A DNA stretch of 64,000 nt from Polynucleobacter sp. MWH-Loch1C5 (GTDB lineage Bacteria > Pseudomonadota > Gammaproteobacteria > Burkholderiales > Burkholderiaceae): assembly GCF_018881775.1 (NCBI RefSeq), contig NZ_JACVPR010000001.1:1444318-1508317 (forward strand). The letters are read 5' to 3'. The notes under the pieces are model-generated. The model was not told the origin of the DNA. It saw only the letters and a list, made by a program, of their open reading frames with translations, and ran no database searches. The stretch's first letter is position 1, and each line of letters starts with the position of its first letter. Of this stretch, positions 29,156-30,002 are shown piece by piece. A program made the position numbers and the translations under genes.

Positions 29156-29183
29156 TTGAAATTGTAATGATGTGCATTACAAT
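29156..29183 (+). promoter_or_regulatory. higBA promoter
   Basis: TTGAAA (29156-29161), 16-bp spacer, TACAAT (29178-29183). The predicted +1 falls near 29190, exactly the A of the full-length higB ATG, implying a leaderless mRNA. The spacer and -10 lie within the operator palindrome. Confidence 0.6.
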
Positions 29184-29184
29184 T
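29160..29184. promoter_or_regulatory. HigA-type operator palindrome
   Basis: AATTGTAATG (29160-29169) and CATTACAATT (29175-29184) are perfect 10-bp arms around a 5-bp centre. The palindrome overlaps the promoter core of higBA, the normal place for autorepression by the HigA antitoxin. Confidence 0.75.
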
Positions 29185-29189
29185 AATGG

Positions 29190-29467
29190 ATGATTCAATC
29201 TTTCAGGCATAAAGGTTTAAGAGATTTTTTATGAAGGGTACATATCAGGGAATACCGGCTCAGTGTGCCCCAAAAATTGAGCGCATCTTGGACTTATTGG
29301 ATTCTGCTGTAGAACCCACTTGTCTTAATATTGTGGGCTATAAGTTTCACGGCTTGAAAGGGTCTCGCAAAGGTACTTATGCTTTGTGGGTCACTGGAAA
29401 TTGGAGAGTCACTTTTCGATTTGATGGTGAAAATGCTATTGATGTAGATCTAGAGGACTATCACTAA
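29190..29467 (+). pseudogene. higB: HigB/GraT-type toxin split by a -1 frame change at a slippery T-run
   Basis: The track lists only 29231-29467 (78 residues: MKGTYQG...). The conserved HigB N-terminus MIQSFRHKGLRDFL is encoded just upstream from ATG 29190 in another frame, ending in TGA at 29232-29234. One extra T in the T6 run (29225-29230) would join the frames as ...FRHKGLRDFFMKGTYQGIPAQ..., matching the family. The junction is T TTT TTA in the correct frame for -1 ribosomal slipping, and the ATG at 29231 overlaps the stop (ATGA), allowing restart. The rest has the toxin core KFHGLKGSRKGTYALWVTGNWRVTF. It may be a pseudogene, a programmed shift or a sequencing error. Confidence 0.7.
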
Positions 29468-29796
29468 TGACGAAAGCTAAAAAAAGTCTGCGACACCCTA
29501 ATCGAAGACCCACTCATCCAGGAGCTATATTGAGAGAAGATGTGCTGCCACAATTAGGCATTACTCAAACTGCCTTTGCTCTTCATTTGGGGGTGAGTCG
29601 CTTGACGGTTTCGGAGATCCTACTTGAAAAAAGAGGGGTTAGCGCAGAAATGGCGATTCGCTTGTCTAAAGTGATCGGCGGCTCCCCTCTGACATGGCTG
29701 CGCATGCAGGAGGCGGTTGATCTGTGGGAAGCCGAGCAAAAGCTAAAAACTCAAATTAAAAATAAGCTCACGCCGATTAAATTGCTTGCGGCCTAA
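29467..29796 (+). CDS. higA: HigA-family antitoxin
   Basis: A 109-residue HTH_XRE antitoxin with the family start RRPTHPGAILREDVLPQLGITQTAFALHLGVSRLTVSEILLEKRGVSAEMAIRLSKVIG and the HigA-typical SPLTWLRMQEAVDLWEAE. It neutralises the HigB RNase and represses the operon. The start overlaps the higB stop by 1 bp. It is intact even though the toxin is split. Confidence 0.92.
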   Translation: MTKAKKSLRHPNRRPTHPGAILREDVLPQLGITQTAFALHLGVSRLTVSEILLEKRGVSAEMAIRLSKVIGGSPLTWLRMQEAVDLWEAEQKLKTQIKNKLTPIKLLAA

Positions 29797-30002
29797 AGGC
29801 CTGAAATAACCTCAAGTTAAAAGTCATAAGCATATGCCAAATTCTTCTAAGAAAAACCCCACGGCGACGCACCCAACTCCTAGGCAGCATAAGACTTTTC
29901 AGGTCTAATACAGTTAGCAAAAGAACCTAATTTTAGGGTTAAACCCGTAGGGTTTTTTGGTTCACTAGCTTTTATGATGGAGAAGTTCTTAGGGAGGAGT
30001 TT
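29797..30002. other. Gap after higBA
   Basis: The gap holds one possible 24-codon ORF (from ATG at 29837; MPNSSKKNPTATHP...) with no good ribosome site, which I do not call, and the terminator at 29932-29961. Nothing else is seen. Confidence 0.4.
29932..29961 (+). terminator. Intrinsic terminator after higBA
   Basis: AAACCC-GTA-GGGTTT (29941-29955) is followed by TTT. A second pairing, GAACC/GGTTC, encloses it, giving a nested hairpin. Confidence 0.6.

Follow-up and report, generated by a model that had tools for sequence, protein, structure and literature searches.

The chromosome of Polynucleobacter sp. MWH-Loch1C5 carries a HigB-family toxin gene whose N-terminus and body lie in different reading frames, joined at the heptamer T TTT TTA. 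Does this arrangement mark recoding, a switch, a toxin that has been lost, or a miscounted base? The host genome (G000 below) is 1.65 Mb in size and belongs to a genus represented by 186 species, the named members of which are Polynucleobacter. Coordinates refer to the window, the whole stretch of 64,000 nucleotides that was analysed, and the features of the locus are collected in Table 1.

Table 1. Features of the higBA locus, in window coordinates.
Feature	Coordinates	Strand	Remarks
Sigma-70-like promoter TTGAAA-16-TACAAT	29156..29183	+	10/12 matches, consensus scan only
Putative inverted-repeat operator ATTGTAAT-N7-ATTACAAT	29161..29183	.	Perfect repeat overlapping the -10, intact; matched in 0/100 shuffles
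higB 5′ fragment (ORF1)	29190..29234	+	MIQSFRHKGLRDFL*; encodes strand 1 and the greater part of helix 1
T TTT TTA	29225..29231	+	T6 run at conserved Phe-Phe codons; point of frame break
higB 3′ fragment (ORF2)	29231..29467	+	78 aa; ATG overlaps ORF1 TGA; conserved core and C-terminal DYH kept
Possible hairpin	29236..29270	+	4 nt after heptamer, -13.5 kcal/mol, not above chance
higA antitoxin	29467..29796	+	109 aa, intact; overlaps higB stop (TAATG); TIGR02607 E 1.4e-30

ORF1 and ORF2 are one HigB gene split over two frames. The 14 residues of ORF1 match the N-terminus of the HigB family, and ORF2 matches PF05015 (E = 7.4e-10; 39.6 bits against a 27-bit cut-off; profile positions 17-91); none of the NCBIfam toxin models was matched in the toxin ORF profile search. 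Family positions, including the C-terminal DYH and the active-site residues, are conserved in the toxin body. The T6 run occupies 29225-29230 and the heptamer lies in the zero frame, read GAT TTT TTA TGA, with the ORF1 stop at 29232-29234 and the ORF2 start codon at 29231-29233. A -1 step at the heptamer restores the exact spacing of the HigB family; as it stands, the toxin lies in two frames in place of the single continuous ORF of a HigBA module. A first-pass annotation had described a toxin whose N-terminus and body are in different frames, a heptamer in -1 phase followed by a TGA that overlaps an ATG, and fused frames that match the HigB family. The ORF coordinates with the PF05015 match, the letters at 29225-29234 and the exact family spacing, respectively, agree with this description.

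The remainder of the module has the layout of a HigBA system. HigA is encoded directly downstream of the toxin, as judged by TIGR02607 and the stop/start overlap, and a palindromic operator can be recognized at the promoter. Of the 14 positions in the operator core, 13-14 are conserved in 25/25 intact relatives and 11 in G167, the genome with the toxin body most similar to that of G000 (65%). As read from the DNA, G000 has an intact control region and antitoxin, and the toxin frame alone is broken. The -10 element ends 6 nt upstream of the toxin ATG, and the higB mRNA is therefore probably leaderless. A distance of only 5-6 nt separates a -10-like TACAAT from the toxin ATG in some copies (window 29178-29192 and clade members such as L061, L065 and L068), which are likely leaderless, while in other higB copies the leader is longer and contains a Shine-Dalgarno-like AAAGGA. 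Tandem or overlapping TTGTAAT-N7-ATTACAA pairs were seen upstream of higB in several relatives: L083 (G026), L081 (G056), L077 (G001) and L067 (G146). These paired sites resemble the paired palindromes of P. aeruginosa, which are bound by two HigA dimers (PMC6987408).

On one side of the module is a thioredoxin-like gene, on the other a cytochrome c / flavocytochrome operon. G121, G119, G068 and G065 have no higBA at this place, and only ~160-230 bp separate the two flanking genes there; higBA is therefore an insertion in the G000 lineage. Searched against plasmids, the locus DNA gave no match and the protein body gave distant plasmid HigBs only. A scan of viral contigs returned 22 HigB relatives, none of which matched solely from the run onward, the junctions not being read individually. 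The cytochrome c / flavocytochrome sulfide dehydrogenase operon has a conserved element in its leader, AGTTAGcaaa...TTTAGGGTTAAACCC..AGGGTT (window 29892-29957), with copies in G119:C76, G121:C39, G065, G111:C3, G052:C127, G030:C3 and G068. Its exact 15-mer occurs in 7/61 genomes of the genus and has no Rfam match, as is true of the window as a whole, and the element is a candidate cis-regulatory leader.

How common the heptamer is, and how it may have come about, were assessed in the window and in relatives. The T run encodes a conserved Phe-Phe in HigB helix 1, and it is present at this site because the family encodes Phe-Phe there. Across 74 ORFs (58 kb) of the window there are 8 in-frame occurrences of T TTT TTA. 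When one T was removed in silico from 21 run-bearing close relatives, an in-frame T TTT TTN resulted in 3 and an immediate stop in 1. The proposal that T loss automatically creates a heptamer was rejected on the first of these counts, and since simulated T loss seldom gives either feature, the exact arrangement in G000 is a modest coincidence. The split of the gene is certain; the presence of the heptamer is weak evidence.

In all 25 intact close relatives of the genus the frame is uninterrupted across the run, and the site codes for Phe-Phe or Phe-Tyr. Among 80 further loci from genomes, the frame is broken at the run in only two, L161 (from the G167 genome) and L167 (from a Thiobacillus MAG). 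G167 and L167 have one T too many for the frame, and G000 has one too few. Such gains and losses of a T at a single homopolymer are characteristic of a slippage hotspot and speak against a conserved -1 recoding signal, since a -1 slip could not put an extra T right. On these sequences the T run is a recurrent indel hotspot.

These patterns bear directly on -1 ribosomal frameshifting, programmed or tolerated, or RNA polymerase slippage, either of which would supply a small dose of full-length HigB from T TTT TTA. The heptamer has the X XXY YYZ form in exact phase, U UUU UUA is a real shift site in HIV (PMC5009743), so that low-level slipping may occur at higB, a stop directly follows the slip site, with an 8-bp hairpin 4 nt downstream, and the toxin body is under constraint. 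However, the split arrangement is not conserved, with 25 close relatives in frame and the other two breaks carrying an extra T, and the heptamer is a common one among local ORFs. The hairpin does not exceed chance: the stretch of 44 nt following the heptamer folds at -13.5 kcal/mol with the 8-bp stem, a value equalled by 15/200 shuffles and 164/2000 synonymous resamplings; over 80 nt z is 0.31, and four intact relatives fold better. AAAGG, a candidate internal Shine-Dalgarno sequence upstream, falls within the conserved His-Lys-Gly codons. A survey of programmed frameshifting requires at least five genes sharing a conserved site (PMC3711429), and A/T runs are, in many genomes, visibly selected against only from nine bases upward, such selection being taken as a sign of transcriptional slippage (PMC1088944). 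We consider production of full-length HigB by slipping unlikely, and the new regulatory mode for higBA raised by the first-pass annotation finds no positive support.

A different use of the same run would be phase variation, with run lengths coexisting among cells and the genome representing an off cell. Three single-T indels of both signs at one run in different genomes are in keeping with such a switch, as are the run lengths of 6-8 that are common in intact relatives. T6-T8 is nevertheless short, since contingency tracts are typically longer. Nor is the tract visibly kept by selection: TTT accounts for 92/100 Phe codons at the run and 185/214 elsewhere (two clades together), with no enrichment that would point to selection on the run. 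Conserved neighbouring genes carry 54 runs of at least 6 with no frame break, and toxins are also lost by nonsense mutation and truncation. An on/off switch is, in our estimate, very unlikely.

The same neighbouring genes address the base count itself. The frame of higB hangs on one base in a homopolymer, and a counting error in the assembly would leave the gene really intact. When window genes were compared with four relatives, 57 conserved genes (46 kb) were all in frame despite the 54 runs of at least 6, 14 of which are 7-8 in length. Routine homopolymer error is therefore unlikely on this comparison, and to a single-base error confined to the T run we assign a very small probability. The first-pass annotation had listed homopolymer error among its options, and as a general problem it is not borne out in these genes.

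Broken toxins proved frequent among relatives. In the clade nearest G000, 5/31 toxin copies are broken: two at the run (G000 and G167), one by an indel close to the C-terminus (G164) and two by absence of the 5′ half (G136 and G140); HigA is kept in 5/5. In a second clade, a single nonsense codon interrupts each of the G011 and G154 copies, which are 97% identical to intact genes, and G146 has a higB without its 5′ part. HigA is recognisable beside every broken toxin copy in both clades, and on these gene comparisons toxin loss with retention of the antitoxin is routine there. In G167 (L201, G167:C3:64000-70900) the gene upstream of higBA is CbiX-like, and in G136 (L088/L202, G136:C313) the same gene precedes a higB that lacks the 5′ half, higA being intact; this arrangement suggests a shared site of toxin loss.

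Direct observations are the split frame, an antitoxin and operator that are both intact, the intact relatives, and independent single-T indels of opposite sign at this run in two other genomes. We consider it probable that the locus is a chromosomal higBA type II module in which the toxin has recently been knocked out of frame and the antitoxin is live. Replication slippage in the Phe-Phe T run would be the most likely cause. The main product would be a 14-residue peptide, with little or no full-length toxin, and HigA would presumably still be produced and still repress the operon. A precedent comes from S. maltophilia isolates, where a frameshifted hicAB toxin goes together with lost toxicity in kill-rescue tests (PMC7650669). 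Two observations pull the other way: the conserved body and active-site residues would also be expected of a protein that is still expressed, and the heptamer stands in correct phase before a stop and a possible hairpin. Of the interpretations offered by the first-pass annotation, recent pseudogenization gained from the intact relatives and opposite-sign breaks, and programmed frameshifting lost ground with the lack of a conserved -1 site. That annotation had also proposed that recoding would be refuted by in-frame relatives together with additional inactivating changes in this strain; the relatives are in frame, and the toxin body is conserved, free of such further changes.

Apart from its frame the toxin is not decayed, and the constraint on it is consistent with a recent break. 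In a codon model omega was low on the G000 branch and omega = 1 was rejected (2dlnL 26.4), with synonymous sites saturated, so that dN/dS gives no age for the break. The HigB/HigA ratio of terminal branch lengths is 1.51 for G000, compared with 1.30 across the remaining tree. This pattern indicates that the toxin was probably under normal constraint until recently; either the break is therefore recent or some of the protein is still being produced.

A disabled higB could still yield a protein by ribosome restart at the overlapping ATG. This ATG is unusual, the position being occupied in relatives by Thr, Ser, Ile, Val or Lys. Starting at family position 15, the restart product would be missing strand 1 and the greater part of helix 1, which spans residues 8-16 when an intact relative is modelled. 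The idea that loss of helix 1 prevents folding was rejected: in a model of the 78-aa product the core stays confident (pLDDT 88). Because the model folds, the case for non-toxicity rests on GraT and not on folding. GraT lacking its first 22 residues is non-toxic, and its complex turns from de-repressor to repressor; helix 1 of P. vulgaris HigB contacts 16S rRNA (PMC6393540). By analogy, the restart product would be expected to be non-toxic and still to bind HigA, like truncated GraT, and if made it is most likely harmless to the cell. A stronger proposal is that the out-of-frame arrangement is kept for this product, with truncated HigB binding HigA and boosting repression without toxicity, and with rare -1 slips or T-run changes restoring full toxin. 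We regard selection for the truncated product as improbable.

Based on these comparisons, a textbook-looking slippery heptamer can arise at conserved Phe-Phe codons and, without conservation, is not to be read as recoding. The 5/31 broken toxins with antitoxin kept also form a small data set on the decay of chromosomal toxin-antitoxin modules and the retention of orphan antitoxins.

Among known systems, P. vulgaris HigBA (PDB 4MCT, 4PX8, 4W4G) is alike in having the toxin before the antitoxin, a C-terminal DYH and an HTH antitoxin, and it shares its fold with the intact relative L104 (TM 0.95); it differs in that the G000 toxin frame is broken within helix 1. The GraT toxin of P. putida GraTA is a PF05015 relative (6f8s) whose first 22 residues correspond to the ORF1-encoded region, but its truncation of 22 residues was made in the laboratory, whereas the G000 product, lacking 14 residues, is only a possible one (PMC6393540). 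With dnaX and IS-element -1 frameshifting, or with transcriptional slippage at 9A/9T, the locus shares a slippery homopolymer heptamer (PMC5009743, PMC1088944); there the sites are either conserved or of greater length, and stimulators accompany them, whereas the higB site is neither conserved nor long and has no stimulator above chance. In S. maltophilia hicAB, as here, the toxin is frameshifted in natural isolates and the rest of the module is present, although the toxin belongs to another family and was tested experimentally (PMC7650669). The break in G000 looks like ordinary toxin loss at a mutation-prone site.
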